64,000 nucleotides of DNA from contig JAKQIT010000165.1 of NCBI GenBank assembly GCA_029556915.1, forward strand, positions 58,715 to 122,714, written 5' to 3'. Below the pieces are notes generated by a model, which saw only the letters and a list, made by a program, of their open reading frames with translations, was not told where the DNA came from and made no database searches. The number at the start of each line of letters is the position of its first letter. The first letter of the stretch is position 1. The position numbers were made by a program, and so were the translations under genes. This document shows positions 6,435-61,460 of this stretch, in pieces. Source of the DNA: Pseudomonadota bacterium. GTDB lineage: Bacteria; Pseudomonadota; Gammaproteobacteria; Burkholderiales; Methylophilaceae.

Positions 6435-6502
6435 CCCTCGAGAAATTTTCATGCCTCTGGAAGCCGCATACAGAGTGGCTTACAGAGGGGGTGAAATGAT
6501 GT
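6435..6502 (-). repeat. 3'-UTR hairpin element, copy A
   Basis: One of seven related elements in this window. On the minus strand, the sense of the gene ending at 6566, it reads CATCATTTCACC, then a stem made by CCTCTGTAAGCC and GGCTTCCAGAGG, then CATGAAAATTTCTCGAGGGT with a T-run. The second part can fold as AAAATTT / GGGTTTT around CTCGA and looks like a terminator. It starts 63 bases after the lipoprotein stop and lies before yjbQ. Confidence 0.8.
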
Positions 6503-6565
6503 TAGTTTAAAAAACGCTTAAAATATGCCTTTTTAAGCAATGTATTTTCATTGCAAAAGGCAAGC

Positions 6566-7090
6566 TCATCTTCTGCGCCTGTGAATATTATTGAAGTAAA
6601 AATGGTTACCCCAATATGGGCTAAAACCGTAGCCATAAAACGGGTGGTAAAAAGGGTCATAAAATGGGTCGTAACGGTAACGTAACGATTGATTTTTTAG
6701 TTTCTCTTGCGCTTCTCTATTGGCTTTCTCACGCTTGTTAATTTCTTCCGCCATACTGTTCAAGCGCATTTTTTCGCGTTCAGCTTGCATAAAATCCAGC
6801 ACTTTGGCATCCACACCTTGCTTGCTTAAATCCACCATTTGGCTGGCGGTGAGGTCATATTGCGAGTTACTACTTTTAATTTTTGCGATGATGTCATCTG
6901 CCGATGTGCCCTGCTTGGAAAGCACGATAATCTCATCCAAGCTCAAAGTGGGCACAGCAGCGGGGGTGAGTTTTGCCACTTCTTCAGGGGTGAGGCGCTG
7001 TACTTGATTTTCGCGCGGGGAATTGCTTGCGCACCCTGCCAGCAATGTTGCAAGCAACACCGCACCAAAAACTAAACCTTGCTTTTTCAT
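6566..7090 (-). CDS. Lipoprotein with aromatic C-terminal repeats, function unknown
   Basis: A 174-residue protein with a lipoprotein signal (MKKQGLVFGAVLLATLLAGC, lipobox LAGC). Residues about 50-100 (LSLDEIIVLSKQGTSADDII and DLTASQMVDLSKQGVDAKVL) form two helical repeats that recur in many small outer-membrane lipoproteins. A charged helix follows. The C-terminus is a Tyr/Phe/Pro-rich tail with YDPFYDPFYHPFYGYG and a final RRRR. A strong AGGAG site precedes the ATG. The gene lies only 17 bases after clpB on the same strand, so it may be co-expressed with that chaperone under heat stress. No function is known. Confidence 0.75.
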   Translation of the reverse strand: MKKQGLVFGAVLLATLLAGCASNSPRENQVQRLTPEEVAKLTPAAVPTLSLDEIIVLSKQGTSADDIIAKIKSSNSQYDLTASQMVDLSKQGVDAKVLDFMQAEREKMRLNSMAEEINKREKANREAQEKLKNQSLRYRYDPFYDPFYHPFYGYGFSPYWGNHFYFNNIHRRRR

Positions 7091-7107
7091 CGCCTCACTC
7101 CTAAAAG

Positions 7108-9693
7108 TTACAACTTACTAAACTGCATTTTTCCTGCCTTGTAATCCACTTGGACAGTGTCTTTTGCCACAAAGTTGCCTGCCAAAATTTCTCGCGCCAG
7201 TGGGTTTTCAATCTCAGATTGAATAGCCCGTTTTAATGGACGCGCACCGTACACTGGATCAAACCCTGCACTGGCGATTTCTGCCAAGGCGGCATCCGTC
7301 ACATTCAACGTCATATCCATCGCCGCCAAGCGTTTAGCCAAATATTGCAATTGAATATTTGCGATAGACTTAATATTATCTTCACCCAAACTATGAAAAA
7401 CGACCACTTCATCAATGCGGTTGACAAACTCTGGCCTAAAATGCGTTTTTACCTCGCCCATCACCGCTAATTTCACCACTTGGTAATCTTGGTCGGCCAT
7501 GCTTTGTATCATTTGCGAGCCCAAGTTTGATGTCATGATAATCACCGTGTTTTTAAAATCCACCGTGCGGCCTTGGCCATCGGTTAAGCGTCCATCATCC
7601 AACACTTGCAACAACACGTTAAACACATCGGGGTGCGCTTTTTCCACTTCATCCAGCAACACCACGCTATAAGGCTTACGGCGCACCGCTTCTGTTAGCG
7701 TGCCGCCCTCTTCATAGCCCACATAGCCCGGTGGCGCACCAATCATACGTGCGACACTATGTTTTTCCATAAACTCACTCATGTCGATACGGATTAAATG
7801 CTCTTCCGAATCAAACAAAAAGTTGGCGAGTGACTTACAAAGTTCGGTTTTACCCACACCTGTTGGTCCTAAAAACAAGAAGCTGCCATAAGGGCGATTC
7901 GGATCGCTCAACCCAGAACGTGAACGGCGAATGGCATCAGACACCAAACGCACCGCTTCATCTTGCCCCACGACTCGCTCGTGCAACTTGGCTTCCATCG
8001 TGAGCAGTTTTTCACGCTCACCCGTCATCATTTTGCTGACAGGTATGCCTGTTGCACGGCTCACCACCTCGGCAATTTCATCTGCGCCCACTTCGGTGCG
8101 TAGCATTTTATTTTTAGTTGTATCACCCGCAGCTTCAGAACTCGCCGCTTGTTTTAGCTGTGCTTCCAGTTGAGGCAATTTGCCGTATTGCAACTCAGAG
8201 ACTTTTTGCCATTCGCCTTTACGCGTTGCTTCTTCCATCTCAAATTTTACTTTTTCGATAGCTTCTTTAATATGCGCAGAGCCCTGTACTTGGGCTTTTT
8301 CAGCCTTCCAAATCTCTTCTAAATCGGCGTATTCTTTTTCTAGCTTGGCAATTTCTTCTTCAATCAAGTCAAAGCGTTTTTTACTGCCTTCGTCTTTCTC
8401 ACGGCGCACCGCCTCACGCTCAATTTTCAATTGAATCAAGCGCCTATCGAGCTTGTCCATCACTTCTGGTTTAGAGTCAATTTCCATTTTGATGCGGCTT
8501 GCAGCTTCATCAATTAAATCAATCGCTTTATCGGGTAAAAAGCGGTCGGTAATGTAACGATGTGAAAGCTCGGCTGCAGCCACAATCGCAGGGTCAGTAA
8601 TTTCAACACCATGATGTAACTCGTATTTTTCTTGCAGCCCTCGCAAAATCGCAATCGTGGCCTCTACGCTAGGTTCATCCACCAACACTTTTTGAAAGCG
8701 GCGCTCTAAGGCGGCATCTTTTTCAATGTATTTGCGGTATTCATCTAAAGTGGTCGCGCCCACACAATGTAGTTCGCCGCGTGCCAAGGCAGGCTTCAAC
8801 ATATTGCCTGCGTCCATCGCCCCTTCAGATTTACCCGCACCCACCATGGTATGAATTTCATCAATAAACACGATGGTTTGGCCTTCGTCTTGCGCTAATT
8901 CTTTTAGCACCGATTTTAAGCGCTCTTCAAACTCACCGCGGTACTTAGCGCCCGCCAGTAAAGCCGCCATATCGAGCGACAACACCTTTTTGTTTTTGAG
9001 TGAGTCTGGCACTTCGCCATTCACAATGCGTTGTGCCAAGCCTTCCACAATCGCGGTTTTACCGACGCCTGGTTCACCAATCAATACTGGGTTGTTTTTG
9101 GTGCGGCGTTGCAACACCTGAATGGCACGGCGAATCTCGTCATCACGCCCAATCACGGGGTCAAGCTTGCCAGCACGGGCGCGCTCGGTTAAATCAAGCG
9201 TATATTTTTTAAGCGCTTCACGTTGGCCTTCAGCCTCTTGGCTATTCACACCATCGCTACCACGCACGGCAGTAATCGCAGATTCTAAAGCTGATTTTGT
9301 TAAGCCATTGCTTTTGAGTAGTTTGCTTGTATCACCTTTATCGTCAGCCAATGCCAGTAAAAACATTTCGCTGGCAATGTAAGCATCGTTACGCTTTTGC
9401 GCCAATTTATCGGTCACGTTTAGCAAGTTATTTAAATCGCGCGAAATCGCCACATCTCCACTCGCATCGGTGGATTTTGGTAAATTGTTAATCGCTGCGG
9501 TTAAACTGTTTTTTAGCTGGTTAAGCTGCACACCTGCACGCGCCAGCAATGAAGCCGTTCCACCATCTTCTTGGTTGAGCAACGCTTGTAGTAAGTGTTG
9601 AGCCTCAATGGCGGTGTTATCTGCGCCCAACGCAATACTTTGTGCATCGGCAATGGCTTGTTGAAATTTAGTGGTGAGTTTGTCGAAACGCAT
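7108..9693 (-). CDS. clpB: ATP-dependent disaggregase ClpB
   Basis: An 861-residue Hsp100 chaperone that extracts polypeptides from aggregates together with DnaK. It has the N domain ([20 protein letters not shown]), a first AAA+ module with Walker A GEPGVGKT and Walker B VFIDEIH, the long middle coiled coil at about 410-530 that distinguishes ClpB from ClpA/ClpC, and a second AAA+ module with GPTGVGKT and [11 protein letters not shown]. Pore loops KYRGEFEER and GYVGYEEGG are intact. The length equals the family norm (857-861). AGGAG precedes the ATG. A sigma-32-like promoter lies 30-60 bases upstream. Transcription may run on into the adjacent lipoprotein gene. Confidence 0.98.
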
Positions 9694-9723
9694 TATTCGC
9701 TCCTGAATGTTTAGTTACCGCTT

Positions 9724-9751
9724 ACATGGGGGAGCAAAATCACTTTTCAAT
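9724..9751 (-). promoter_or_regulatory. Sigma-32 (heat-shock) promoter of clpB
   Basis: The minus strand reads ATTGAAA, a 14-base spacer, then CCCATGT. The sigma-32 consensus is CTTGAAA-N13-15-CCCATNT, so the match is 6/7 plus 7/7 with ideal spacing. It ends about 30 bases before the clpB start. Confidence 0.8.
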
Positions 9752-9775
9752 AGGTGAATACCCTTATGAGGAACG

Positions 9776-10342
9776 CTAATTTTTGGCTGGGGCTACTTGC
9801 CAATGTCGCCCTTCATCTTCGCTAATGAGCAATACTGTTTTACCATCCGCAGTTTGTAATCGCATAGACGGTTGAGGTGCGCTCATTAAAAACTCAATGT
9901 TTGTCACCTTTGATACTGGCAATAGTTTGGGGGGAGGAAAAACCAAAGCTTCACCATCCATACGCGCATAATAGGCCTTATCTGCGTGTGTCCAAGCCAA
10001 AAACCAACCCCAATCGCCAGCGCGAGCAATCGCTATTGATAAGAAATGACATTCATCTGATTGTTTTTGATGGTAGGTAATTCGTTTAATTACAGGCGTC
10101 TTTTGCTCATCCAAGGCAATAATGGCTAACTCTTGCACATTGTCTTCAAAAGTTTGTTGCGTGAAATAAACTGGCTGTTGACGGCTGTCTATCGTTGTTG
10201 CAATGCTACAGAGTGATTTTGGCATTGTTGGCAGCATATTGGGTTGTGCATGTCCTGCATAACTGAAAAATAAGCCACTAAAAACCATTCCCAAAATGAT
10301 TATGTTTTTGCTAGTCACTCGCGTTGCACCTATAAATTGCAT
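9776..10342 (-). CDS. Secreted hypothetical protein
   Basis: A 188-residue protein with a signal peptide (SKNIIILGMVFSGLFFSYAG, cleavage likely after GHA). The mature part has two Cys (LCSIATT and DECHFLS) that could form a disulfide, and a C-terminal LISEDEGRHWQVA that resembles one blade of a BNR/Asp-box sialidase-type repeat. I chose the ATG at 10342 since AGGTGAG lies just upstream; a GTG four codons earlier overlaps that site. No family is recognised. It is followed by the clpB promoter, so it is likely a single-gene unit. Confidence 0.7.
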   Translation of the reverse strand: MQFIGATRVTSKNIIILGMVFSGLFFSYAGHAQPNMLPTMPKSLCSIATTIDSRQQPVYFTQQTFEDNVQELAIIALDEQKTPVIKRITYHQKQSDECHFLSIAIARAGDWGWFLAWTHADKAYYARMDGEALVFPPPKLLPVSKVTNIEFLMSAPQPSMRLQTADGKTVLLISEDEGRHWQVAPAKN

Positions 10343-10526
10343 CGTAAATCTCACCTAATTTTAACAAACAGATTCTCTCAAATAGACCATTGTGTAAGGG
10401 ATTATATCCCGCACAAAAAATTCATTTAATTTTATTTAAGTTTCAATTATTTAGTCCGATAAATAGTTATGAATAGTTTAATTTATATGGATTAAACCGC
10501 CCTTTGGGGGTGATATTAAATTTGAA

Positions 10527-12407
10527 TTGAAAAGAAAATTGAAGAACACCAACCAACCAACACCTAATCATTTGGCTGAGCAAGATGAGCAAATGGCTGA
10601 ATTGAGTCTAACTATCAAAAGTAGATTCAAGGCTGCTTGGCATTTATCTGCGGCCATACAAAGTGCCTTAGATAAAAACTGGCATTGGGTGGACTCTTCT
10701 GAAGCCATTCAAAACCACACAGAGGCCGTTACTGATTTACCACATCTAGCTGATATTGCTTTTATGAGTGCCGGCGAAGGTATGATGGTGATGGATGAAA
10801 AAGGCTGCATTTTAAGCATCAATAAAGCTTATACAACAATCACTGGCTTCCGAGAAATTGATGCCTTAGGTTTAACGCACAAAGCCATGCGTGATAAAGA
10901 TTGTGATGTCTGGCGCACTTTGCAACTCAACGATAAATGGTCAGGCGAAAAACTTAATTACCGCAAAAGTGGTGAGGCCTATCAAGAGCGCATTACGCTG
11001 AGTGCTGTGCGAAACCATCTGCATCAAGTTACCCATTATGTGGGTGTTTTTTCAGATATTACTGAAGCAAAACATTCACAAAACAGATTACAAGAGCTGG
11101 TAAATCACGATCCTCTCACTGGATTGCCAAATCGCAGATTATTTACCGAGTTACTCGAGCATGCCATTAAACGTGCTGAGCGAGAGCATCACGAAATTGC
11201 ATTATTGTTTGTTGATTTAGATAGATTTAAATCCATTAACGACAGCCTTGGTCACCAAGTGGGTGATAAATTATTGTATGAGGTATCTAAAAGAATTCAT
11301 CATACCGTTAGAGATAGCGATGTCGTTGCCCGTTTAGGCGGCGATGAATTCTTGGTGATGATGGATAATATTAAATCGATAGAAGATGCGGCGTCAGTAG
11401 CGCAAAAAATTATCTATGCTTTGCAAATTGAATTTCATATTGATAGTAAGGAAATTTTTATTGGTGCAAGTGTCGGTATTTCGATTTTCCCAAAAGATGG
11501 CAATGATGTAGAAGGGCTAATTAAAGCTGCTGATATTGCCATGTACCAAATTAAAAATCGCGGTAAAAACAACTTTTGTTTTTATTCGGAAGAGCTTAGT
11601 AAAAATGCTGTTGAGCGCTTTACTTTAGAAAGTGAACTCCGCCACGCTTTAGCACGCAAACAGTTTGAAGTGCATTATCAGCCTCAAATATCATTACTTA
11701 CAGGTGACATTATAGGTGCGGAAGCTCTGATTCGTTGGCGTCACCCTACGCTAGGCTTGGTATCACCCGCTAGATTTATCCCTATTGCAGAAGAAACAGG
11801 CTTAATTGTGCAAATTGGCGAATGGGTGCTCAGACAAGCTGCCAAGCAAGCGATGGCGTGGATTAGCGATGGCTACACTATGCAATGGATTTCAGTCAAC
11901 GTTTCTGGCGTGCAAATCATGCGGAGCAATTTTTACGACACAGTATATGGCATATTGGTAGAAACAGATTGTAAGCCACAAATTCTTGAGTTAGAAATCA
12001 CCGAAAGCACGGTGATGCAAAACACCGAATTTGTAATTGATACGTTTAACAACATTAAACAACTCGGCGTACGCGTAGCGATTGATGACTTTGGTACAGG
12101 TTATTCATCTCTTTCCAACCTCAAACGTTTGCCTCTTAGTAAAATTAAAATTGACCAATCCTTTGTGCGTGGCCTGCCTGATGATTTAAACGATGCGGCG
12201 ATTACCAACACGATAAATGCCATGGCACGAAATTTAGGATTCTCCGTTATTGCCGAAGGTGTAGAAACAAATGCGCAGGCTGAGTTTCTGAAAAATATGG
12301 GCTGCGAAGAAGCCCAAGGTTACTTATATGGTAAGCCGATTGATGCTGCTGAGTTTACCAAAATGCTTGAAACAAGAACGCAAAAGTATCAAATTGCAGG
12401 TAACTAA
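10527..12407 (+). CDS. PAS-GGDEF-EAL cyclic-di-GMP signalling protein
   Basis: A 626-residue protein with a PAS domain at about 75-190 (GEGMMVMDEKGCILSINKAY, ending in a PAC-like YVGVFSDITEAK), a GGDEF domain at about 195-355 with intact active site RLGGDEF near 271-275, and an EAL domain at about 370-615 with GAEALIRW near 398 and catalytic DDFGTGYSSL. Both enzymatic signatures are complete, so it may make and break c-di-GMP, though in such hybrids one domain is often regulatory. There is no membrane segment. The likely start is TTG at 10527; an internal ATG at codon 23 is possible. It is followed after one base by an HD-GYP gene, making a c-di-GMP operon. Confidence 0.9.
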   Translation: MKRKLKNTNQPTPNHLAEQDEQMAELSLTIKSRFKAAWHLSAAIQSALDKNWHWVDSSEAIQNHTEAVTDLPHLADIAFMSAGEGMMVMDEKGCILSINKAYTTITGFREIDALGLTHKAMRDKDCDVWRTLQLNDKWSGEKLNYRKSGEAYQERITLSAVRNHLHQVTHYVGVFSDITEAKHSQNRLQELVNHDPLTGLPNRRLFTELLEHAIKRAEREHHEIALLFVDLDRFKSINDSLGHQVGDKLLYEVSKRIHHTVRDSDVVARLGGDEFLVMMDNIKSIEDAASVAQKIIYALQIEFHIDSKEIFIGASVGISIFPKDGNDVEGLIKAADIAMYQIKNRGKNNFCFYSEELSKNAVERFTLESELRHALARKQFEVHYQPQISLLTGDIIGAEALIRWRHPTLGLVSPARFIPIAEETGLIVQIGEWVLRQAAKQAMAWISDGYTMQWISVNVSGVQIMRSNFYDTVYGILVETDCKPQILELEITESTVMQNTEFVIDTFNNIKQLGVRVAIDDFGTGYSSLSNLKRLPLSKIKIDQSFVRGLPDDLNDAAITNTINAMARNLGFSVIAEGVETNAQAEFLKNMGCEEAQGYLYGKPIDAAEFTKMLETRTQKYQIAGN

Positions 12408-12408
12408 A

Positions 12409-13686: not shown

Positions 13687-13697
13687 CTAAAACTCTG

Positions 13698-14845: not shown

Positions 14846-14865
14846 ATCAATTTTTCCTCTATAAA

Positions 14866-15561: not shown

Positions 15562-15721
15562 CTAAAACTTTCAACTAAAATATTGCGTTGGCACATTTAA
15601 GCTAATCGCCACCATTCAAAACTGGCAAATATACCATATAACCTTTTGTTACCTGTGATTGTAAGCAATCTGACGCTTTAAATTTGCATTATTTTGGCTG
15701 TCAGCTTCACCAGCCAATAAT

Positions 15722-15740: not shown

Positions 15741-15812
15741 TCACAAATCCAGCCAATTGTCAGTCTAATTTTTCGTTACCGTATTTGTTAAAATAAATCA
15801 CTTAATTTACTG

Positions 15813-15876
15813 CGAGGATTTTTCGATGCTCTGGAAGCCGCAAGGATACTGGCTTGCAGAGCATCGATAATGATGT
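15813..15876 (-). repeat. 3'-UTR hairpin element, copy B
   Basis: On the minus strand a GATGCTCTGCAAGCC arm, a loop with CAGTATCCTTGC, and a GGCTTCCAGAGCATC arm form a long hairpin, followed by GAAAAATCCTCG. It begins 49 bases after the stop of the receptor gene ending at 15926, in the same transcript sense as the other copies. The trailing CTCGGGG tract is degenerate in this copy. Confidence 0.75.
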
Positions 15877-15925
15877 TCAACTAGAATCAGGCTAAAAACA
15901 CTCAATTTCAGCGCCTCAAATTCTG

Positions 15926-24928: not shown

Positions 24929-24971
24929 AATAACAAAAAAAATTGCTTAATTTTAGGCTGATTTAGCACAA

Positions 24972-25037
24972 CATCATTTCACCTCCTCTGCAAGCCAGTC
25001 TGCATGCGGCTTGCAGAGCATCAAAAATCTCTCGGGG
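24972..25037 (+). repeat. 3'-UTR hairpin element, copy C
   Basis: Reads CATCATTTCACC, then arms CCTCTGCAAGCC and GGCTTGCAGAG around a loop with AGTCTGCATGC, then AAAAATCTCTCGGGGGATTT with further T. The last part can fold as AAAATC/GATTTT and end transcription. It starts 43 bases after the DUF808 gene and separates it from the convergent DUF1905 gene. It is one of the best-preserved copies. Confidence 0.85.
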
Positions 25038-25064
25038 GATTTTTTAGCTGAAAAAATAATTTCA

Positions 25065-34055: not shown

Positions 34056-35231
34056 CTATTCACCAATATGCAATTCGCCTCGGGCAATTAACGCTGCATT
34101 CAATACTTTTTTAGTATCTTGACCTATCACTGTAAAGTGACCCATTTTGCGTGCGACTCTAGGTTCCGCCTTACCATAAAGATGTAACTTCAAGTTAGCA
34201 TGGCTGCAAGCCTTATTCCATGCGGGTTCCAGAGGGGTATTTTTTTCTCGGGCGCTTTCCGTATTAGAAAACCAACTGTCACCTAAGATGTTCACCATCA
34301 CCGCATTGCTGTGCATACTGGCATCACCTAGAGGCAAACCTGCGAGCACGCGCACTTGCTGCTCAAACTGATTCGTTATACAAGCATCTATTGTATAGTG
34401 GCCGGAGTTATGCGGACGTGGTGCAATCTCATTGACAAGCAACTGATTGCCAACTACAAAAAACTCAACACCCAACACACCTACATAATTGAGCTTTTCA
34501 GCTAGTTTTTTTGCTAACTCACGAGCGTTAGCCTTGAGCACTTCTGAACAACGTGCTGGTGCAATACTAATATCCAAAATACCGTTTAAGTGACTATTTT
34601 CAGCCGTAGTGAATGCCTCAATATTTCCCTTGCTGTCACGCGCAAGCACCACCGAAACCTCTAAATCAAGCGGCAACATTTGCTCTAAGACACAGATTTC
34701 TTGCTTGAACGTGTTAAACGCAGCTTGCGCTTCAGCTTGATTTTTCACACGCGCTTGACCTTTGCCATCGTAGCCAAAACGCGCCACTTTAAGAATGGCA
34801 GGGTAGAGTGGACTAGCGTCACTAGGTAAGTCTGCATTGGTATTTATCACTGCAAACGGTGCTACTGGCAAACCAGCCTCTTTAATAAATCTTTTTTCTA
34901 ATACCCGATTCTGAGCAATCGCCACGCTTGCACCACTGGGGCGAACGGTTGTAGTAAGCGCTAACTTTTCAAGCGTGCTTGCAGGTACATTTTCAAACTC
35001 TGTTGTCACCGCTTGGCAAGTTTTTTCCATTTCTGCCAATGCGGTTTCATCATCATAATTGGCACACAAATGGACATCAGCAATTTTACCTGCTGGGCTA
35101 TTTTTATCAGGGTCCAGCACGGTCACTTTATAGCCCATTTCATGGGCTGCAATGACAAAAAAACGGCCAAGCTGACCGCCACCCAACATACCCAACATAG
35201 CAGGTGGTGTAATTACTTTGCTATCACTCAT
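34056..35231 (-). CDS. purK: N5-carboxyaminoimidazole ribonucleotide synthase PurK
   Basis: A 391-residue ATP-grasp enzyme that carboxylates aminoimidazole ribonucleotide in purine synthesis. Motifs: MLGGGQLGRFFVIAAHEMGY at the N-terminus, PAILKVARFGYDGKGQARVK of the ATP-grasp domain, VLEQMLPLDLEVSVVLARDS, and VNEIAPRPHNSGHYTIDA of the metal site. It follows purE by 13 bases; it is the last gene of obgE-proB-purE-purK. Confidence 0.98.
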   Translation of the reverse strand: MSDSKVITPPAMLGMLGGGQLGRFFVIAAHEMGYKVTVLDPDKNSPAGKIADVHLCANYDDETALAEMEKTCQAVTTEFENVPASTLEKLALTTTVRPSGASVAIAQNRVLEKRFIKEAGLPVAPFAVINTNADLPSDASPLYPAILKVARFGYDGKGQARVKNQAEAQAAFNTFKQEICVLEQMLPLDLEVSVVLARDSKGNIEAFTTAENSHLNGILDISIAPARCSEVLKANARELAKKLAEKLNYVGVLGVEFFVVGNQLLVNEIAPRPHNSGHYTIDACITNQFEQQVRVLAGLPLGDASMHSNAVMVNILGDSWFSNTESAREKNTPLEPAWNKACSHANLKLHLYGKAEPRVARKMGHFTVIGQDTKKVLNAALIARGELHIGE

Positions 35232-41047: not shown

Positions 41048-41052
41048 ATTTC

Positions 41053-41122
41053 ACGCATCTTCCTAACACCTGCTCTGGAAGCCTTATTCTATGCGGCTTT
41101 CAGAGGCATAAAAATCTCTCGG
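41053..41122 (+). repeat. 3'-UTR hairpin element, copy D
   Basis: The pieces CTCTGGAAGCC and GGCTTTCAGAG, then GCATAAAAATCTCTCGG. It starts five bases after the channel gene stop. The terminal T-run is lost (CAAAAATAAAG follows), so the terminator half is probably inactive. It lies just upstream of the B12 riboswitch promoter. Confidence 0.75.
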
Positions 41123-41178
41123 CAAAAATAAAGCCACTATTTTTGCAAAAATCACACGCATTCTTTAAGATTAAAAGC

Positions 41179-41184
41179 TATAAT
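41179..41184 (+). promoter_or_regulatory. Probable -10 element of the riboswitch transcript
   Basis: A perfect TATAAT ends 12 bases before the first conserved bases of the cobalamin riboswitch. No good -35 is seen 16-18 bases upstream. Confidence 0.6.
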
Positions 41185-41196
41185 GCGCACATGTTG

Positions 41197-41560
41197 TTAG
41201 GTGCCTTGTTTGTGTTCTTACAAACGAGGTGAAACTGGGAAATAGGTGCATTTTGTCTCTGATAAAAAATAATGCCTATGCTGCCCCCGCAACGGTAAGT
41301 GAGCTTACTTGCAATACAGCCACTGAGATAAGATTTTTTTAAATCTTCTTGGGAAGGCGCAAGTTAAGATGAAGTGGCGAGCAAACAAAACGCAAGGCGC
41401 GTAGCGCACAGCATGCGAAGACAGTACGCATAGTACGGCAAGCATGCGAGCACTACAGCAACACCGCGATTTGATTGTGCAGACCTTCATCACTCACAAG
41501 CCCGGAGACCGGCCTCGCAACTAAATAGTTGAAAATACCGCGGGGTGACGGTGTATAAAA
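41197..41560 (+). ncRNA. Cobalamin (B12) riboswitch
   Basis: The conserved core elements appear in order: GGTGCC and GGTGAAACTGGGAA, then GCTGCCCCCGCAACGGTAA, GCCACTG, TGGGAAGGCGC, and the B12 box CAAGCCCGGAGACCGGCC, followed by CGCGGGGTGACGG in the expression platform. It lies about 100 bases ahead of the btuB start, as usual for B12 uptake genes. Between GGGAAGGCGC and the B12 box there is about 110 extra bases held by the complementary pair GATGAAG/CTTCATC (see the next entry). Binding of adenosylcobalamin should repress translation of btuB. Confidence 0.93.
41375..41484. repeat. Long palindromic element family 2, copy 3, inside the B12 riboswitch
   Basis: Flanked by GATGAAG and CTTCATC, which pair with each other. 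The inside (GCAAGGCGCGTAGCGC, GACAGTACGCATAGTACGG, GCATGCGAG) resembles the palindromic element at 26170-26313 (GCAAGGCGC, GATAGTACGAAGTGTAC) and that at 25415-25500. Positioned in a peripheral stem, so the conserved riboswitch core is kept intact. Confidence 0.65.
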
Positions 41561-45579: not shown

Positions 45580-45616
45580 CTATAATTCATTATAAATTCA
45601 GCCAATTTTCACACAA

Positions 45617-45679
45617 ATCATTTCACCTGCCCGCTAATCCAGTCTGCATGCGGGTTGCAGACGTATAATTTTCTCTCGG
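45617..45679 (+). repeat. 3'-UTR hairpin element, copy E
   Basis: Reads ATCATTTCACC, then CGCTAATCCAGTCTGCATGC and GGGTTGCAGACG, then AATTTTCTCTCGG. The stem arms have drifted compared with copies C and G, so this is the weakest copy. It is 37 bases after the YbcJ gene and has the same transcript sense. Confidence 0.65.
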
Positions 45680-45814
45680 ACAAGTTTTACTCAATATCAC
45701 TTTTAATTATATTCAATATTGTGCCGGTGAAGTGTAGGCAAAAATACGCGTTACCTTGGCAAGTTGCACCAAAACATAGCCGTTGCAAATTGATTTTAGA
45801 TTAGAATATTTAGC

Positions 45815-51025: not shown

Positions 51026-51122
51026 GACTTACCCCTTTAATTTGTGGTGATTTTGCTCAGAATACTAACCAACGCAACCCTCTGCGTCAAACAAAAAAAA
51101 TGATTAAAAATAATAAAAAAAT

Positions 51123-51188
51123 CCCCGAGAGATTTTTGATGCCCTGCAAGCCGCATGGAATAAGGCTTACAGAGGAGTTTAAATGATG
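51123..51188 (-). repeat. 3'-UTR hairpin element, copy F
   Basis: On the minus strand it reads CATCATTTAAAC, arms CCTCTGTAAGCC and GGCTTGCAGGG, then ATCAAAAATCTCTCGGGGAT followed by a long T-run. AAAAATC/GATTTTT makes a perfect 7-bp stem around TCTCGGG, so the terminator half is intact. It is 299 bases after the gene ending at 51488, with a hairpin-rich stretch between. Confidence 0.8.
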
Positions 51189-51487
51189 TTTGCTAAAAAA
51201 TGAGTCAAAAATTGAAAATTTTTGACTCAACATTATGGGCTTAATAATCCCCCTTCTGACGCGCCGTGGGTTTTTAATTTGGCTTGGGAGATTTCGGCAG
51301 ACGCATGTTTGAACTCCGCAACAAGCCACGGTTTGTGTGGCTTGTTAGGGTGAGTTCGGCTGCCGCCTAAGCTAAATTAAAAATCGAGGATACAAGCGGT
51401 AGCGGGGTCGCCTTCTTTTTGGATACTTTTACTTGGCGAGGCAAGAAAAAGTATCTCGCTAAGGGGCGAAATTAGACGTTTCTTAAT
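51189..51487. other. Non-coding stretch with three strong hairpins, probably a decayed mobile or repeat element
   Basis: No credible gene. It contains TGAGTCAAAAATT and its exact complement with a 3-base loop (51201-51229); AACAAGCCAC and GTGGCTTGTT (51320-51346); and GATACTTTT...AAAAGTATC with an inner CTTG/CAAG stem (51422-51455). The last of these, with the surrounding GGGTCGCCTTCTTTTTGG, looks like a dispersed sequence I have seen near other accessory genes, but I cannot name it. Confidence 0.5.
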
Positions 51488-55000: not shown

Positions 55001-55869
55001 TTACCGCCAATGCAGCAGGCATCCGCAGAGGTTGGGTCACAAGCGAACTCTAAGCCAGCATCACTTGCCGCCTCCATTGCACGGCGAGTCACCACGCCAG
55101 CACCACATTCTATGGTGGCAACTTGCCTTGCCACACCCGGCAAGGTACGCATTTGCACGCCAGAGTGCTGGTCTAGCTTTTCTGTATTAATGACTGCTGA
55201 AAGTGGCGTCAGCGGAATGGCTCCGCCGGTATAGCCAGTACCACCACCGCGGGGGATGATAGTAAGTCCTAACTCAATACAGGCTCTCACCAACGCGGCA
55301 ATTTCTTTTTCCGTATCCGGGTTAATTACCACGAACGGATACTCCACGCGCCAGTCTGTGGCATCTGTCACGTGTGAAACGCGCGCTAAGCCATCAAACT
55401 GAATATTATCTTTGCGTGTTAGCCTAGAGAGTTTGCTTAAAGACTTTTTGCGTAAGTCGTAAGTTTGGCGGAAATCTTCAGCAAATTTATCAACCGCAAC
55501 TCGCGCAGCGGCTACTAATTTTTGCACTTTATCATTACCGGCGCTGCGTTCATCAATGGCAGCGATGCGGTGATTAAGCGCATCAATTAAGGCTTGGCGA
55601 CGCTTAGGGTTATCCAACAAATCATCCTGCAAATACGGATTACGCGAAACCACCCAAATATCACCCAGCACTTCAAATAACATACGTGCAGAGCGGCCTG
55701 TTTTACGTTCAGCCCTAAGCGCATTTAATATTTGCCACATTTCCTCTCCAAGAAACCGAATCACGATTTCACGGTCTGAAAATGAGGTGTAGTTGTAAGG
55801 AATTTCACGCAGACGCGGTGCGGCGTGTGAATCGGCAAAAGGGGTGGTACTTGGAAGTGGTGCGTTCAT
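52000..55869 (-). CDS. ydiJ: Large FAD-binding and Fe-S oxidoreductase, YdiJ family
   Basis: A 1289-residue protein. The FAD-binding type 4 domain at about 190-370 has [20 protein letters not shown] and [20 protein letters not shown]; a FAD-oxidase C-terminal domain at about 450-790 has [15 protein letters not shown] and [17 protein letters not shown]. Two 4Fe-4S motifs follow ([11 protein letters not shown] near 820 and [14 protein letters not shown] near 890), then two CCG domains ([10 protein letters not shown] near 1066 and [16 protein letters not shown] near 1190). Relatives oxidise D-2-hydroxyacids (D-lactate, D-2-hydroxyglutarate) and pass electrons to quinone. The gene is divergent from hemJ and is translationally coupled to the small membrane protein downstream. 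Confidence 0.92.
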
Positions 55870-56045
55870 GTGCTCTTTTTTTGAAATTGCATCAATAATA
55901 AAGGCGCAATTATATCATGCCAATACTGAGTAAATAAGCGTATCCTTATTGTGGATATGTCGCCTACTAGCGTGTATTTTGGCAAGCAAAAAAAGTCATT
56001 GCATCGTACAATCAGCCCTGTTAATTGAAAATTAAGGTTAAAGTT

Positions 56046-56456
56046 ATGTTGTGGATTAAGGCATTGCACATTATTTTTGTTACCAGCTGGTTTGCTGGAC
56101 TATTTTATTTGCCGCGACTATTTGTTAACCATGCCATGGTAACCGATGCTGCCACAGCTGAACGGCTTGTTTTGATGGAGCAAAAGTTATTTCGTTTTAT
56201 GTTACCGCTGGCACTATTAGCACTGGCGTTTGGGCTCATACTTTGGCTACATTACGGCATTTCAGGCAATTGGATGCACCCTAAGTTGCTACTCGTGGCG
56301 GTACTGATTGGCTACCATTTTTATTGCGGCAAATTGCTCAATGACTTTAAACACAATAAAAACAAGCACAGCCATGTGTGGTATCGCTGGTTTAATGAAT
56401 TACCCGTGCTTGTATTGACTTTAGTCGTGATATTAGTCGTGGTTAAGCCTTTTTAA
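56046..56456 (+). CDS. hemJ: Protoporphyrinogen IX oxidase HemJ
   Basis: A 136-residue four-helix inner-membrane protein. MLWIKALHIIFVTSWFAGLF carries the conserved His, LPRLFVNHAM the second, and GNWMHPKLLLVAVLIGYHFY the essential Lys region; it ends NELPVLVLTLVVILVVVKPF. HemJ makes protoporphyrin IX in the last common step before haem. AAGG precedes ATG 56046. A longer frame adds only seven codons. Confidence 0.95.
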   Translation: MLWIKALHIIFVTSWFAGLFYLPRLFVNHAMVTDAATAERLVLMEQKLFRFMLPLALLALAFGLILWLHYGISGNWMHPKLLLVAVLIGYHFYCGKLLNDFKHNKNKHSHVWYRWFNELPVLVLTLVVILVVVKPF

Positions 56457-56478
56457 CACCTGTTTACAGTTCAGTTAA

Positions 56479-57228
56479 ATGGATATTTTCAACTCGCCGT
56501 GGCTCATTAAAATGCTAGAAAAATCTAGCAAATATCCACACGAGCGCATTCTCAACCTATTTAACATTTTAGATGACTGGCTTGAGTTACCTAACACCCA
56601 CATCCAGCTATCTGCAGCACCAGCAACCCACCATAACTTAACAAAATATTTAGCAGAACAAGCGCAGCAGCTCGGCGCATCGAACCCAAACATTTTGGCT
56701 GAGCATATTGCGCTAATTGCTTACAACGCGGCTATTCAGAAGACAAAAGAGCTCGACAGCAACCATTTAACCCACGCTAAAAAAGCGACGGAAGCCTTAA
56801 TATTGGCTCAAACACAAAAAGAGAAGCTGCAACTCAGCTTCACCAAGCCCGCCATTTATGGTTTAGCCGCGAGTTGCATTCTTGCACTTGGTATTGCTTT
56901 ATTTTGGCGGTCAATCCCCAATACATCACCCCCCATCTTGACAGAAAATAATATCGACACAGATGTTACCGCTACTTTCAATCAAGACAATAGCAAACTC
57001 ACAGCTAAAGATGCCGCCGACATGTATGCTAAATTTGAGCTAATGCGCAACGGCACTTGCCAGTTTCCAGAGGCGCTACAAATACCAGATAAACATAAAG
57101 CGGTTTATATTGAGAGTGTGGTGGGAGGAAAATTGCCCGCTGATTTAGCAGACTTAGCCATCGCCAACACTTATTTAGAAAAGGTACGCTGCAACTACAC
57201 CCCTATGCTAATGGCAAACTCAAAGTAA
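56479..57228 (+). CDS. Hypothetical protein with one membrane helix
   Basis: A 249-residue protein. An alpha-helical N-terminal part has LEKSSKYPHERILNLFNILD, a single helix is near 132-148 (YGLAASCILALGIALFW), and a C-terminal soluble part contains two Cys (GTCQFPEA and VRCNYTP) that could form a disulfide in the periplasm. No family is recognised. It follows hemJ by 22 bases and may be co-transcribed. Confidence 0.6.
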   Translation: MDIFNSPWLIKMLEKSSKYPHERILNLFNILDDWLELPNTHIQLSAAPATHHNLTKYLAEQAQQLGASNPNILAEHIALIAYNAAIQKTKELDSNHLTHAKKATEALILAQTQKEKLQLSFTKPAIYGLAASCILALGIALFWRSIPNTSPPILTENNIDTDVTATFNQDNSKLTAKDAADMYAKFELMRNGTCQFPEALQIPDKHKAVYIESVVGGKLPADLADLAIANTYLEKVRCNYTPMLMANSK

Positions 57229-57398
57229 ATGCCGCCCCGTTAAGTCAAAAATCGCACAAAAAATCTTCTTTAATTTGCAAAAATGTGTCAGTTATACAAT
57301 TCTGTATATTTTTGAATACACTCAACCGCCTATAATAATCAGCATCTTTATATTTAGCGCTCAATAAAGCACTGTTGCATTTTTGTTGACTTCATATA

Positions 57399-57412
57399 AT
57401 ACTAACAAGTAT
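57399..57412. promoter_or_regulatory. Candidate operator before the tetR-type gene
   Basis: ATACTAACAAGTAT is a short inverted repeat (ATACT-N4-AGTAT) in the 269-base gap before the TetR gene; TTGACT upstream could be a -35. Single-site evidence only. The rest of the gap is AT-rich and empty. Confidence 0.3.
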
Positions 57413-57497
57413 ATCTATCTAAACAATTAGCTAAATGACACATTTTGCGCGATAATGGGGCATGCAAAGTGCACTTGACTCCTAATATAGTTTACTT

Positions 57498-58073
57498 ATG
57501 GCTGAACAAAAAATCATCAAATTAAGAGAGCGCATTTTAGGCGTTGCCACCCATTTGTTTCAAAACAAAGGCATCAACTTGACTGGCGTGGATGCCATCG
57601 TCGCGGTAGCTGGCACCACTAAAATGACGCTGTATAAATACTTTTCCTCTAAAGAAGCCTTAATTTTAGAGGTACTTAATCAAAACCAAAAAGACTTTCT
57701 CACTTGGCTAACCGCTCAGTTAAGCCATAAAAAACCTGCTGACAAAATAACGCAATTATTTGATTACATTGAAGAATGGGTATCATCTCCAGACTTTACT
57801 GGCATGGCTTTTATTAAAGCTTCGGCTGAGTTTCCCAATGAAGAAAATCCGATTCACCAGTTATCTAGTCAACAATCCCGAGAGTTTCGTCAGTACATTA
57901 GCAAGCTTGCGCATGAGGCCAACATTAAAGATGCTGATGGCCTAGCTTTACAGCTATCTTTGTTATTTGAAGGCGCCATGCAAGCCGAACAAATGAAGCG
58001 TGGCTCAGGTGCGGTTAAATATGCTAAAAAAGCGGCTAAAATTTTAATTGATGGTGCGATTAAGTCGTCTTAG
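57498..58073 (+). CDS. TetR/AcrR-family transcriptional regulator
   Basis: A 191-residue regulator. The N-terminal helix-turn-helix (RILGVATHLFQNKGINLTGV, IVAVAGTTKMTLYKYFSSKE) is clear. The C-terminal ligand domain ends KKAAKILIDGAI, as in the AcrR/YxaF-like group. The ligand and targets are unknown. It is followed after 71 bases by a PfkB kinase gene on the same strand, which could be a target, but no shared operator is visible. Confidence 0.9.
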   Translation: MAEQKIIKLRERILGVATHLFQNKGINLTGVDAIVAVAGTTKMTLYKYFSSKEALILEVLNQNQKDFLTWLTAQLSHKKPADKITQLFDYIEEWVSSPDFTGMAFIKASAEFPNEENPIHQLSSQQSREFRQYISKLAHEANIKDADGLALQLSLLFEGAMQAEQMKRGSGAVKYAKKAAKILIDGAIKSS

Positions 58074-58144
58074 CAAATCCAAGCTAGCTTTAAACTGCCA
58101 GTTGCAAGATAATGACAGCTTCTTAATTATTCTTGTGCTTTTTT

Positions 58145-59086
58145 ATGTCTATTCTCATCTGCGGCTCACTGGCTTATGACACCATTATGGTGTTTCAAGA
58201 TCAATTTAAAAATCATATTTTGCCCGACAAAATTCATGCCCTAAGTGTGGCGTTTTATGTGCCTGAGATGCGTCGCGAGTTTGGTGGTACGGCTGGGAAT
58301 ATTGCCTACAACTTGCAGTTACTGGAGGGCAATCCGCTAATAATGGCAACAGTAGGCGAAGACTTTGGTCCTTATTCTACATGGCTCAACAAAAACAACC
58401 TGAACACCGCACACATCAAAACCATTGAAAATAACTTTACTGCGCAAGCTTTTATTACTACGGATACTGACGACAATCAAATTACTGCATTTCACCCAGG
58501 CGCCATGGTTGAATCACACCAAAATCACGTGAGTGACACAAAGGGTGTGTTGCTGGCAATCATCGCACCCGAAGGCCGCGATGGCATGTTTGCCCACGCT
58601 AAAGAGTGTTTTGATGCAAAAATCCCCTTTATGTTTGACCCTGGCCAAGGTTTGCCCATGTTTAATGGTGAAGAGTTGTTGCACTTTATTGAAATGGCCG
58701 ATTATTTAGCGGTAAACGATTATGAATCACAAATTATTCAAGATAAAACTGGCCTAACGCTTGAACACCTCGCCACAAAAGTAAAAGCTTTAATCGTCAC
58801 TCTGGGTGGCAATGGCTCACAAATTTATGCGGATGGTCAACGTTTTGACATTCCATGCGTTAAAGCGAGCAAGATTGTAGATCCGACCGGTTGCGGTGAT
58901 GCTTATCGCGCTGGCTTATTGTATGGCATTGCGCGCAGCTGGGATTGGCCAACCTGTGGGCGCTTAGCTGCGACCATGGGCGCAATCAAAATTGAAAGCC
59001 GTGGTGGCCAAAATCATAAACCGTCGCGTGGCGATATTGAGGCCATTTATACCCAAGCTTTAGTCAATGATACTAAAGTGGATTGA
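58145..59086 (+). CDS. PfkB-family carbohydrate/nucleoside kinase (adenosine-kinase-like)
   Basis: A 313-residue kinase starting MSILICGSLAYDTIMVFQDQ. The anion-hole and catalytic signature is KIVDPTGCGDAYRAGLLYGI near residues 240-260, and the first PfkB signature is FGGTAGNIAYNLQLLEGNPL. Overall it resembles bacterial adenosine/ribokinase-like proteins found next to betaproteobacterial genes. The ATG at 58145 is taken over a TTG four codons earlier. A SlyB-like gene follows after 59 bases. Confidence 0.88.
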   Translation: MSILICGSLAYDTIMVFQDQFKNHILPDKIHALSVAFYVPEMRREFGGTAGNIAYNLQLLEGNPLIMATVGEDFGPYSTWLNKNNLNTAHIKTIENNFTAQAFITTDTDDNQITAFHPGAMVESHQNHVSDTKGVLLAIIAPEGRDGMFAHAKECFDAKIPFMFDPGQGLPMFNGEELLHFIEMADYLAVNDYESQIIQDKTGLTLEHLATKVKALIVTLGGNGSQIYADGQRFDIPCVKASKIVDPTGCGDAYRAGLLYGIARSWDWPTCGRLAATMGAIKIESRGGQNHKPSRGDIEAIYTQALVNDTKVD

Positions 59087-59145
59087 AACTTAACAAGTTG
59101 GTTGCAACTCAAATCTCTATGTATAACGATTTTGGGGAGTTTAAA

Positions 59146-59601
59146 ATGAAATTAACACAATTAGCCATTGCAGGCTTAATAAGTATCGCCCTTATAGGCT
59201 GCGCCAGCTCTAACTCTGGCGGCGTATATACCCGTGAAGAAGCCCGTAAAGTACAAACCGTTAAAACAGGTGTTGTTGAAGGTGTACGCCAAGTTAAACT
59301 TGAAGGCACAAAAACACCTATCGGTACTGGCGCAGGCGCAGTAGTTGGCGGTGTGGCTGGCGGATCCATTGGTAGTGGTGGACGCACTAGCGCGGTTGGC
59401 GCGGTAATAGGCGCTGTGGCTGGTGGCATCGTAGGGGCAATGGCTGAAGAAGGCATTACCCGCAAAGATGCGCTTGAAATTACCGTTAAATTAGATGGCG
59501 GTGGCTTAATCGCAATTGTGCAAGAAGCTGATGAAGCATTTAACCTTGGCGAAAAAGTACGCATTATTGAAAATGGCGAAAATTCTCGCGTTTCACACTA
59601 A
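59146..59601 (+). CDS. Glycine-zipper lipoprotein, SlyB/Pcp family
   Basis: A 151-residue lipoprotein (MKLTQLAIAGLISIALIGCA, lipobox LIGC) with an internal glycine zipper at about 66-110 (GTGAGAVVGGVAGGSIGSGG, GAVIGAVAGGIVGAMAEEG) and a C-terminal domain (DALEITVKLDGGGLIAIVQE, EKVRIIENG) as in the SlyB family of outer-membrane lipoproteins. A GGGGAG site precedes ATG 59146. It has its own terminator. Confidence 0.92.
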   Translation: MKLTQLAIAGLISIALIGCASSNSGGVYTREEARKVQTVKTGVVEGVRQVKLEGTKTPIGTGAGAVVGGVAGGSIGSGGRTSAVGAVIGAVAGGIVGAMAEEGITRKDALEITVKLDGGGLIAIVQEADEAFNLGEKVRIIENGENSRVSH

Positions 59602-59617
59602 TCTAACTTAAACAAAC

Positions 59618-59645
59618 AAAGGCGACTTTCATGTCGCCTTTTTTA
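59618..59645 (+). terminator. Intrinsic terminator of the SlyB-like gene
   Basis: AAAGGCGAC / GTCGCCTTT around a loop of TTTCAT, followed by a T-run, 16 bases after the stop codon. Confidence 0.92.
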
Positions 59646-59727
59646 TTTTCCAGCACGTCAACTTAGTAGTGATTTTTTCAATCTCGCGCACCACAGCAAT
59701 TAGTCCCGTCAACAAAACATCATATTT

Positions 59728-59745
59728 CTGTCATCGTTTATTCAT
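59728..59745 (+). promoter_or_regulatory. Candidate Pho box upstream of olsB-olsA
   Basis: CTGTCATCGTTTATTCAT has the 7-4-7 form of PhoB half sites. The first half CTGTCAT is perfect; the second (TATTCAT) matches 4 of 7. It lies 46 bases ahead of olsB, the right distance for an activator site next to the promoter. Confidence 0.45.
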
Positions 59746-59790
59746 TTTTAGCTTTTAAAGTGCTCTTCATCAAATAACAGGAGCACTTGA

Positions 59791-60555
59791 ATGATTAAAA
59801 ATACATTACAGCCAATAAAAAACAACGGCTTGCGCCATCAAAAGGCTGGGAAACTTACCATTAGTCTTGCACGCACTCATACTGAGATTGAAGAAGCGCA
59901 ACGCTTACGCTACAAAGTATTTGCCGAAGAGATGGGCGCCCAACTTTTAGGCACAGGCGGTTTAGATGTAGATGGATTTGACCAATATTGCGAGCATTTA
60001 ATTGTGCGCGATAGCAGCACACAGCAAGTGATTGGCACTTACCGTATTTTGAGCCCAGAAAACGCTAACGAAGCGGGTGGTTATTACTCAGCAGGTGAAT
60101 TTGACATTTCAAGGCTGGCGCATCTATTTGACCGCACGGTTGAAGTTGGTCGCGCTTGCGTACATCAAAACTATCGCAACGGTGGCACCATCACGTTATT
60201 ATGGGCTGGTTTGGCAAAATACATGCAAATGCACAATTATGAATACATGATAGGCTGCGGTAGCATGAGTATGGCAGATGGCGGCCACGCGGCGGCAAGT
60301 TTGTATCAAAAATTGCAAGACGAATACTTATCACCACTTGAGTACCGCGTATTTCCACGCAATCCGCTATTAAGTCGCTCGCTCAACACCAACTTGCAAG
60401 TTGCCTGCCCGCCGTTAATTAAAGGATATTTGAGACTTGGCGCGTATATTTGCGGCGAACCAACGTGGGACCCCTATTTCAATACAGCCGATATGCTGGT
60501 AATGTTACCGCTTTCGAGAATTAACCCAAGATACGCTGCCCACTTTTTGAAATAA
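59791..60555 (+). CDS. olsB: Ornithine-acyl [acyl-carrier protein] N-acyltransferase OlsB
   Basis: A 254-residue GNAT-fold protein of the OlsB/hemolysin-like family (RYKVFAEEMGAQLLGTGGLD, DGFDQYCEHLIVRD, VIGTYRILSP, VEVGRACVHQNYRNGGTITL). It transfers a 3-hydroxy-fatty-acyl group to the alpha-amino group of ornithine, making lyso-ornithine lipid. CAGGAG precedes the ATG. The acyltransferase that completes the lipid follows 47 bases later. Confidence 0.88.
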   Translation: MIKNTLQPIKNNGLRHQKAGKLTISLARTHTEIEEAQRLRYKVFAEEMGAQLLGTGGLDVDGFDQYCEHLIVRDSSTQQVIGTYRILSPENANEAGGYYSAGEFDISRLAHLFDRTVEVGRACVHQNYRNGGTITLLWAGLAKYMQMHNYEYMIGCGSMSMADGGHAAASLYQKLQDEYLSPLEYRVFPRNPLLSRSLNTNLQVACPPLIKGYLRLGAYICGEPTWDPYFNTADMLVMLPLSRINPRYAAHFLK

Positions 60556-60602
60556 CTCACTTTAAAGCGTGATGATTAAAAGGTGGTACAGTAACAACAC
60601 CT

Positions 60603-61379
60603 TTGCAAACAACAATAATACAACAAACCAATCGCCTCACGCGCTACTTTAGAATCAGCCGCGTGGCTATGCACACGCTGGTGGGCGTGGCTACTGTGAG
60701 CTTGGTTTTTCCACTAGTGCGCTCAAGCCACAAAATCAACATCATGCAATGGTGGCACAGGCGTTTGCTTGCTGCGCTTAATATTCAAATCACCACGCAC
60801 GGAAATGTTCCGCAGCAAATGGCCGGCACATTGGTGGTGGCTAACCATATTTCTTGGTTAGATATTCACGCGCTTAACAGCGTGGTGCCGCTGCGTTTTA
60901 TCGCCAAGTCTGAAATCAAACACTGGCCTATTTTTGGTTACTTGGCTAAAAGTGCTGACGTGCTATTTATAGACCGTGAAAATCGCAAAGATGCGGTGCG
61001 GGTGGCACACACCACCGCGAGCAGTTTAGAAGCTGGCGATAATTTATGCTTGTTTCCTGAAGGTACCACCACCGATGGCAACAGTGTTTTACCCTTTAAA
61101 AGCAGCCTGATTCAAGCCGTTTTGCACGCCAATGCTACGCTACAACCCGTAGCCATTCGCTATCCGCTCGCGAATGGTGATGCGAATATTTTGATGGCCT
61201 ACGCAGGCGATACCAGCTTAAAGACATCGCTTAGCCAAATTTTGCAGCAGAAAACGCCAAAAGTAGAGTTGCATTTTTTAAGCCCAATTTTCACGGCTGA
61301 CCTATCTGATGAAGACAAAAATCGGCGCACTTTAACAGCCTTTATTGAGCAAAATATTAGACAAAAATTAGGCTTATAA
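60603..61379 (+). CDS. olsA: Lyso-ornithine-lipid acyltransferase OlsA (PlsC family)
   Basis: A 258-residue PlsC-type acyltransferase with the catalytic NHISWLD (HX4D near residue 83) and FPEGTTTDG. An N-terminal helix (HTLVGVATVSLVFPLVR) anchors it to the membrane. It adds the second fatty acid to lyso-ornithine lipid. The start is TTG 60603; an ATG at codon 22 would remove conserved residues. The pairing with OlsB makes ornithine lipid the likely product; general phospholipid synthesis is the alternative. Confidence 0.85.
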   Translation: MQTTIIQQTNRLTRYFRISRVAMHTLVGVATVSLVFPLVRSSHKINIMQWWHRRLLAALNIQITTHGNVPQQMAGTLVVANHISWLDIHALNSVVPLRFIAKSEIKHWPIFGYLAKSADVLFIDRENRKDAVRVAHTTASSLEAGDNLCLFPEGTTTDGNSVLPFKSSLIQAVLHANATLQPVAIRYPLANGDANILMAYAGDTSLKTSLSQILQQKTPKVELHFLSPIFTADLSDEDKNRRTLTAFIEQNIRQKLGL

Positions 61380-61390
61380 ACCCCACAAAA

Positions 61391-61460
61391 ACCCCCGAGA
61401 GATTTTTATGCCTCTGTAAGCCGCATGGATACTGGCTTGCAGAGGCAGTCAAATGAAGAT
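61391..61460 (-). repeat. 3'-UTR hairpin element, copy G
   Basis: On the minus strand, in the sense of apaH, it has arms CCTCTGCAAGCC and GGCTTACAGAGG around AGTATCCATGC, then CATAAAAATCTCTCGGGGGT with a T-run. It begins 13 bases after the apaH stop, between the convergent olsA and apaH genes. It is among the best-preserved copies. Confidence 0.85.

Follow-up and report, generated by a model that had tools for sequence, protein, structure and literature searches.

The systems closest to the element discussed here are the strong gyrase site (SGS) of phage Mu, the gyrase motif mapped by Topo-Seq in Escherichia coli, and the REP (repetitive extragenic palindrome) and BIME-2 repeats of the same bacterium. 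The Mu SGS is a single phage site with one essential arm, and the available text of PMC6463007 places the bends of its gate segment at GC steps located 7-8 from the centre. The E. coli motif, like our element, is symmetric with an aperiodic centre and periodic flanks, but it covers 130 bp, is degenerate and has a 10.75-bp period, according to the available part of PMC6379681. The same text reports that positive supercoils collect between convergent genes and ahead of transcription, and that gyrase is found downstream of active genes, an attraction that to its authors seems not hard-wired in the E. coli sequence. Every gyrase tested prefers periodic GC within 120 bp of the cut (available text of PMC12324340), and BIME-2 binds gyrase (as reported in the accessible parts of PMC6379681, PMC6463007, and PMC3733652). 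The present analysis concerns a 64,000-nt stretch (hereafter the window; positions 58,715 to 122,714 of contig JAKQIT010000165.1, assembly GCA_029556915.1) from a Methylophilaceae genome whose genus is taken as Methylotenera, and a family of palindromic elements that recurs in it. The form of the element is REP-like, and each copy is probably the centre of a putative dispersed strong DNA-gyrase site at transcription ends, which, unlike the gyrase attraction of E. coli, would be hard-wired in the sequence; we infer that gyrase binds the copies and acts on supercoils there. No description of such a family was found in the literature searched at title and abstract level, and Rfam at gathering thresholds returns no entry at the window copies.

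An initial annotation of the window had listed seven copies, A to G, whose places, boxes, and stem were all confirmed, and a covariance-model scan reports an eighth one. The genome to which the window belongs (G000, 3.28 Mb in 165 contigs) contains 187 exact matches to the core GCGGCTTNCAGAG and none to the reversed pattern, which is far above chance. A covariance model built from 67 copies (R1) finds 58 copies in the first 400 kb of contig C14, two places below 30 bits being left out, and the exact core recovers 29 of them; extrapolation from C14, by sites or by length, gives a genome total of ~370-475 copies. The conserved core of ~70 bp comprises a CATCATTT-like box, the palindrome CTCTGnAAGCC / GGCTTnCAGAG with an 11-nt loop, and a TCTCGG box. 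The stem is present as annotated, except that its middle pair is unpaired in 41 of 67 copies. The covarying pairs that the initial annotation anticipated give a mixed picture within G000, where the covariation score of the 67 copies lies above that of the shuffles (0/500) while the double-change cells are not in excess (36 vs 30.5 in shuffles, 86/500). Between species, they are found: five genomes yield 45 double-change cells vs 21.5 in shuffles (0/500), and a covariation score that also exceeds them, in an author-chosen subset of 60 of the 115 aligned copies, for which relatedness alone can exceed such shuffles. Judging from these alignments, the inverted repeat is probably kept by compensating changes, and a palindrome kept in this way is compatible with a cruciform or an RNA hairpin as well as with a symmetric DNA site. 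In 21 of 124 G000 copies (L014, L019, and L038, for example), the outer boxes point the other way with respect to the loop, which looks like a flip of the palindrome between its arms by cruciform or template-switch inversion.

The placement of the copies was scored in an unbiased sample made up of the first 400 kb of C14 and the window (464 kb; 423 genes called by our own hexamer script), in which called genes contain 7 of the 66 copies and gaps the other 59. Among the gaps of at least 90 bp, a copy is held by 25 of the 29 convergent ones, 26 of the 109 tandem ones, and 4 of the 39 divergent ones (convergent versus divergent, p 2e-10); regardless of size, 29 of 47 convergent gaps hold a copy. 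The centre of the tandem copies lies at a median of 65 bp past the upstream stop codon. This bias repeats among the R1 copies of the related genome G001 (convergent 15/25, tandem 12/109, divergent 2/46), where the same convergent junctions as those of copies C and G also hold a copy; of three conserved convergent junctions that leave room for a copy and can be compared between the two genomes, two carry one in both. The copies had initially been read as a portable 3'-end module for RNA, always set in the same transcript sense as the gene upstream. The portable 3'-end element is supported, but a strand-specific RNA module as the main function is not, and neither is the single sense. Within the window all seven orientations hold, of which only five are informative, since those at 24972 and 61391 have convergent neighbours and would follow a stop codon whichever way they pointed. 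Genome-wide, the constant sense fails, with 18 of 26 tandem copies in the same sense and 8 in the opposite one (p = 0.076); among 92 copies picked by the exact core, it is kept in 29 of 45 by core and in 28 of 45 by outer boxes. A strict transcript sense was therefore dropped. Regular spacing was dropped as well: the 107 intervals of a first list looked too even (coefficient of variation 0.65 vs 0.98), but all C14 copies give 0.99 vs 0.85 for class-matched gaps; C14 intervals below 2 kb number 3 vs 6.9 expected (p 0.048).

The strongest constraint on the element is its DNA geometry, which has the loop as its axis of symmetry and takes no account of transcript sense. When the copies are aligned on the core, base identity is lost past its ~70 bp, yet the A+T content still oscillates, with a best-fit period of 11.46 ± 0.02 bp, the middle base of the loop as centre of symmetry (124 G000 copies), and maxima at ~39.5, 51, 62.5, 74, and 85.5 bp from the centre. 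The phasing score is positive in 124/124 copies (mean z 4.09) vs -0.18 (sd 1.38) in 153 copy-free gaps, period and phase having been fitted on the same 124 copies that were scored; over a slightly narrower range, 123/124 copies are positive. The signal decreases from 3.79 at 33-70 bp to 0.78 ± 0.09 at 140-180 bp and 0.20 ± 0.10 beyond, and it persists in coding positions alone (1.96 ± 0.13, 111 copies), the periodicity background in coding sequence and other gaps being weak. A and T interchange, one peak having 47 T and 43 A among 92 copies, and all-A/T 5-mers without TpA (A-tracts) are enriched (0.42 vs 0.26). Since the two bases interchange, TpA-free A-tracts are enriched, and phasing reaches coding sequence, the constraint acts on double-stranded DNA shape. 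The element is the centre of a ~300-bp stretch of evenly bent DNA. In a wedge model, the end-to-end value is 0.833 at copies vs 0.876 at 125 copy-free gaps (p 4e-6), and 0.900 at copies with shuffled flanks, less curved than the native ones. The window copies, with their covariance-model scores and phasing z, are:

6424..6509, minus strand: copy A, centre 6471, between tandem genes; 84.0 bits, phasing z 3.44
15798..15883, minus strand: copy B, centre 15845, between tandem genes; 72.5 bits, phasing z 3.12
24964..25049, plus strand: copy C, centre 25002, between convergent genes; 91.4 bits, phasing z 5.48
34180..34265, plus strand: eighth copy, centre 34218, inside purK; 42.1 bits, E 7.9e-10, phasing z 1.02 (weak)
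41051..41136, plus strand: copy D, centre 41089, between tandem genes; 75.5 bits, phasing z 4.38
45608..45693, plus strand: copy E, centre 45646, between tandem genes; 57.7 bits, phasing z 3.12
51111..51196, minus strand: copy F, centre 51158, between tandem genes; 81.4 bits, phasing z 3.47
61381..61466, minus strand: copy G, centre 61428, between convergent genes; 93.5 bits, phasing z 5.38

The phased A/T arms of copy A extend ~140 bp on either side, the GC steps of copy C are found at 24994-24995 and 25009-25010, and copy E is the most diverged of the seven lettered copies. The eighth copy sits in frame in the 3' part of purK (34056-35231, minus strand), a name assigned from the sequence of the gene without family search. 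A cobalamin riboswitch (41182-41531), located before a TonB receptor gene, begins less than 60 bp downstream of copy D.

By its mechanism, the element would work like a strong gyrase site. The ~70-bp core would represent the gate segment, its pair of nearly invariant GC steps, each 7-8 bp from the centre, would take the two sharp kinks imposed by gyrase, and the phased A/T tracts would let both arms wrap right-handed around the two GyrA C-terminal domains. A right-handed path, the sense in which gyrase wraps DNA, follows from a period longer than 10.5 bp. The sites would coincide with accumulating positive supercoils, being found foremost in convergent gaps and elsewhere shortly past stop codons; gyrase, presumed to be the only type II topoisomerase of the copy-rich lineages, would thereby be parked where it is needed. 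GC at both -8/-7 and +7/+8 is found in 114/124 copies of G000, 20/20 of G058, 20/20 of G057, 17/20 of G070, and 20/30 of G001. With the Mu SGS, the element shares GC bend steps 7-8 bp from the dyad, a phased arm, and nearly equal distances of the A/T plateaus, which in Mu lie ~38.5, 50.5, 61.5, and 73 from the dyad; in contrast to it, this putative gyrase site is dispersed and symmetric, with both arms phased, a palindrome with an 11-nt loop, and extra boxes. Only one GC-N12-GC is present within 25 bp of the annotated Mu cut, and its dyad is 2 bp from that cut, as a 4-bp stagger requires. The template optimum at this Mu offset (-4.5) was known before the bend coordinates, and the dyad was fixed afterwards from those in the available text of PMC6463007. 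Scored at the two positions flanking the dyad, the flank profile of G000 takes ranks 10 and 11 of 15,791 over 33-105 bp, 13 and 26 of 15,861 over 33-70 bp, and 30 and 20 of 15,731 over 33-135 bp, and the dyad comes first for this profile among the 118 GC-N12-GC sites of that 16 kb. The right arm alone (33-70 bp) ranks 3 and 43 of 15,861, in keeping with the essential role of that arm in Mu. Conversely, with the Mu right arm (33-70 bp) as template, 67% of the 58 C14 copies score above the 95th percentile of the background. Taking the annotated Mu cut as the left one had shifted the gyrase centre 4 bp to the right and suggested twin sites; the bend coordinates given in the available text of PMC6463007 show that this centre was misplaced.

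Regarding topoisomerase IV (Topo IV), ParC and ParE co-occur in 22 of the 52 genomes of the genus, as judged by score gaps: the ParE calls score 676-696 bits, under the family cut-off, vs 534 at most for other matches, and ParC is above its cut-off in 21 genomes and partial in G066. None of these 22 genomes is copy-rich, that is, with at least 11 matches to the R2 model (R2 counts of 89 standing for at least 89), and they have at most 7 matches each. Topo IV was not found in any of the seven copy-rich genomes, which are draft assemblies with a completeness of 82% to 99.99%, single absences being uncertain in the poorest of them. The association has a Fisher p of 0.016 among all 52 genomes and of 0.002 among the 37 of at least 2 Mb, uncorrected for ancestry. 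Among the GyrA proteins compared, those of the Topo IV genomes G012, G018, and G042 have a long acidic tail and those of G000, G058, G001, and G070 a short one, G057 being left out as a fragment; a small GyrA tree with weak support does not group the genomes by tail length. It is conceivable, and we propose it tentatively, that gyrase-only Methylotenera possess a hard-wired, genome-wide network of ~400 putative strong gyrase sites at transcription ends which, together with the absence of Topo IV and the shortened acidic tail of the compared GyrAs from copy-bearing genomes, would place the sole type II enzyme by sequence and not by transcription alone. In G000, a 217-residue open frame (contig C12, 217434-218057) matches ParE positions 389-593 (115 bits), with an element copy just downstream (C12, 218100-218185); this frame may be what is left of a Topo IV, or a fragment that stands by itself.

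The geometry is found again in other genomes. In the sister species G058 and G057, the fixed G000 template scores positive for 20/20 sampled copies each, the samples being the best-scoring listed copies with three near contig ends skipped (two in G057, one in G058). The periods proper to G058 and G057 are 11.4 and 11.5, with phases within 0.5 bp, and the commonest loop in both is TTTATTTATAA vs AGTATCCATGC in G000. Ten copies from Topo IV genomes have a mean phasing of 0.27 ± 0.43; mis-centred loci (L318, L326, L331, and the minus-strand R1 loci of the same set) were left out. At convergent gaps, the 11.5-bp signal amounts to 3.42 in G000 (36 gaps) and 1.67 in G001 (33 gaps), whereas it is absent from G012, a sister genome with 2-3 detected copies (1.04 at 21 gaps); bent target sites older than the copies were rejected on this ground.

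Several observations weigh against the gyrase-site reading. The invariance of the GC steps is partly built in, as the copies were found through GGCTT/AAGCC, and these steps are 13 bp apart in the copies vs 12 in Mu. The Mu left arm (33-70 bp) fits less well, with ranks of 2409 and 831 of 15,861. The type II cleavage consensus GNANGNNCNTNC (available text of PMC12324340) is poor at the centre (0.24 of 6 at +0.5, 2.57 at -0.5) and scores best 6 bp off it (3.6; background 1.33), although the Mu site itself reaches 3 of 6 at the dyad used, which weakens this consensus test. The 11.46-bp period and the 140-180 bp range are larger than the published gyrase periods of 10-11 bp and the ~66 bp per side of the E. 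coli motif. Within the genus, 23 of the 30 genomes without a found Topo IV have at most two matches, some of the 30 are incomplete drafts, six with no or almost no GyrB/ParE match, and the association is uncorrected for ancestry. To our knowledge, the TCTCGG and CATCATTT boxes have no gyrase counterpart. Two copies of the copy-rich G024 are unphased (0.27 and -0.12), and phasing is weak in G001 (0.82 ± 0.38, 30 copies) and G070 (1.27 ± 0.36, 20 copies). In G001, copies with the TCTCG box are phased (1.86 ± 0.48, n 16) and box-less ones are not (-0.21 ± 0.29, n 14; p 0.0075), while phasing does not depend on the box in G070 (8 with, 12 without) and G000 (107 with, 17 without). Lastly, the REPs of E. 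coli display no phase lock (28 REPs in 350 kb; 17 and 15 isolated sides), and with this negative control phasing was rejected as a general REP property.

As a high-copy extragenic palindrome at 3' ends, the element resembles E. coli REP/BIME-2, which the available texts describe as dispersed extragenic palindromes mostly between convergent or same-direction genes. It differs from them by its strong phased arms, the near-constant absence of GTAG and CGTC (the tags found beside the stem of 124 copies being GTAG in 2, CGTC in 4, and GGAG in 22), and the lack of dimers or clusters in C14 1-400 kb, where the smallest of 57 spacings is 1434 bp. The only PF01797 (RAYT-like) match of G000 is located at L081:1408-1947 in C14; its last residues are encoded by an element copy, and a copy is present on one side of the gene only. 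Because the GTAG/CGTC tags are lacking, dimers are absent, and the RAYT tie is inconclusive, the element is not filed as a REP family member. That it would be a selfish REP/RAYT repeat surviving where harm is small is highly improbable: the high copy number, the extragenic palindrome, the RAYT-like gene that ends in a copy, and another such gene near a copy in G057 all suit a mobile repeat, but most roomy convergent gaps are filled, the flanks are phased at each site, the convergent gaps of G012 lack the signal seen in G000, the estimated chance of a copy at a given gene end is about one in five, and G001 and G058 carry copies with no PF01797 match. Very unlikely as the main function, though less so than selfishness, is a transcription terminator, often bidirectional, or a 3'-end RNA module, in line with the initial annotation. 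It accounts for copies that follow stop codons and fill 25 of 29 convergent gaps, and for hairpins with a median of -18 kcal/mol. The second hairpin with a T-run, annotated in copies C, F, G, and A, folds in C, F, and G; a permissive script, run on copies without control, detects it on the loop strand of 61/124 copies, on the opposite strand of 36, and on the two together in 16. Within 45 nt past the stem, T-rich sequence occurs on at least one strand in 93/124 copies vs 81/128 control gaps, and on neither in 31/124 vs 47/128; in G001 and G070, a T-tract follows the stem in 18/30 and 16/20 copies (other strand, 10 and 5). However, in the 16 nt that adjoin the stem, a T-tract (6 or more T in 8, the T-runs of second hairpins being ignored) is absent from both strands in 78/124 G000 copies and present on both in 0/124. 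The orientation is only weakly biased (18/26), A and T interchange where A+T content is conserved, the phasing is symmetric and extends into coding sequence, and, against an RNA module, the opposite strand of the window copies folds equally well or better in several cases. Since second hairpins with T-runs are commoner than the first T-tract test indicated, the odds of a terminator were raised and those of the gyrase site and of plectoneme pinning (below) slightly lowered, and a terminator role is possible for part of the copies. In G001 and G070 pooled, T-tracts are more frequent after box-less copies (20/26 vs 14/24 forward; 10 vs 5 reverse), and these box-less hairpins may be true terminators.

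Two further explanations retain the bent DNA without gyrase. Curved DNA may pin the tip of a plectoneme, with the palindrome, perhaps as a cruciform, at the apex and the arms forming the loop, and thereby insulate neighbours without any enzyme recognizing the site. Intrinsic curvature over ~70 bp is indeed reported to pin plectonemes (available text of PMC6301789), the copies are more curved in the wedge model than copy-free gaps and shuffled flanks, and the long range of the phasing suits a loop. We nevertheless regard this explanation as unlikely: it leaves the conserved boxes, the GC steps, and the fit to the Mu dyad unexplained, and the pinning DNA in the available part of PMC6301789, alike in its intrinsic curvature, is found at promoters, the reverse of the element placement, with no repeat family described there. 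Quite unlikely, too, is another DNA-wrapping protein, such as an unknown nucleoid protein, that would recognize the boxes and wrap ~300 bp. The sequence-specific boxes ~30 bp from the centre would suit such a protein, as would the association of phasing with the TCTCG box in G001, but the box is irrelevant to phasing in G070 and G000, a candidate is lacking, and the Mu match and the Topo IV pattern favour gyrase.

If the gyrase-site reading is true, gyrase sites would become readable from sequence as a family with hundreds of natural replicates, and the natural variants in arm phase, boxes, and loop would allow the rule of site choice and wrapping by gyrase to be tested at once. A lineage lacking Topo IV may here have reshaped the topology of its chromosome. 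A caution also follows for annotation, as a hairpin at the end of a gene may act at the DNA level, in addition to terminating transcription or in place of it. Of note, a repeat with a similar core, AAAAAGCCTTGATTTATGCGGCTTGCAGAGGG, and different flanks occurs in Clostridia (L112, L114, L117, L119, L127, L133, L135, and L143) and is apparently unrelated to the Methylotenera family. Open reading frames were listed, without family search, at 12 loci of the Clostridia repeat, and L132 has a resolvase-like frame nearby.

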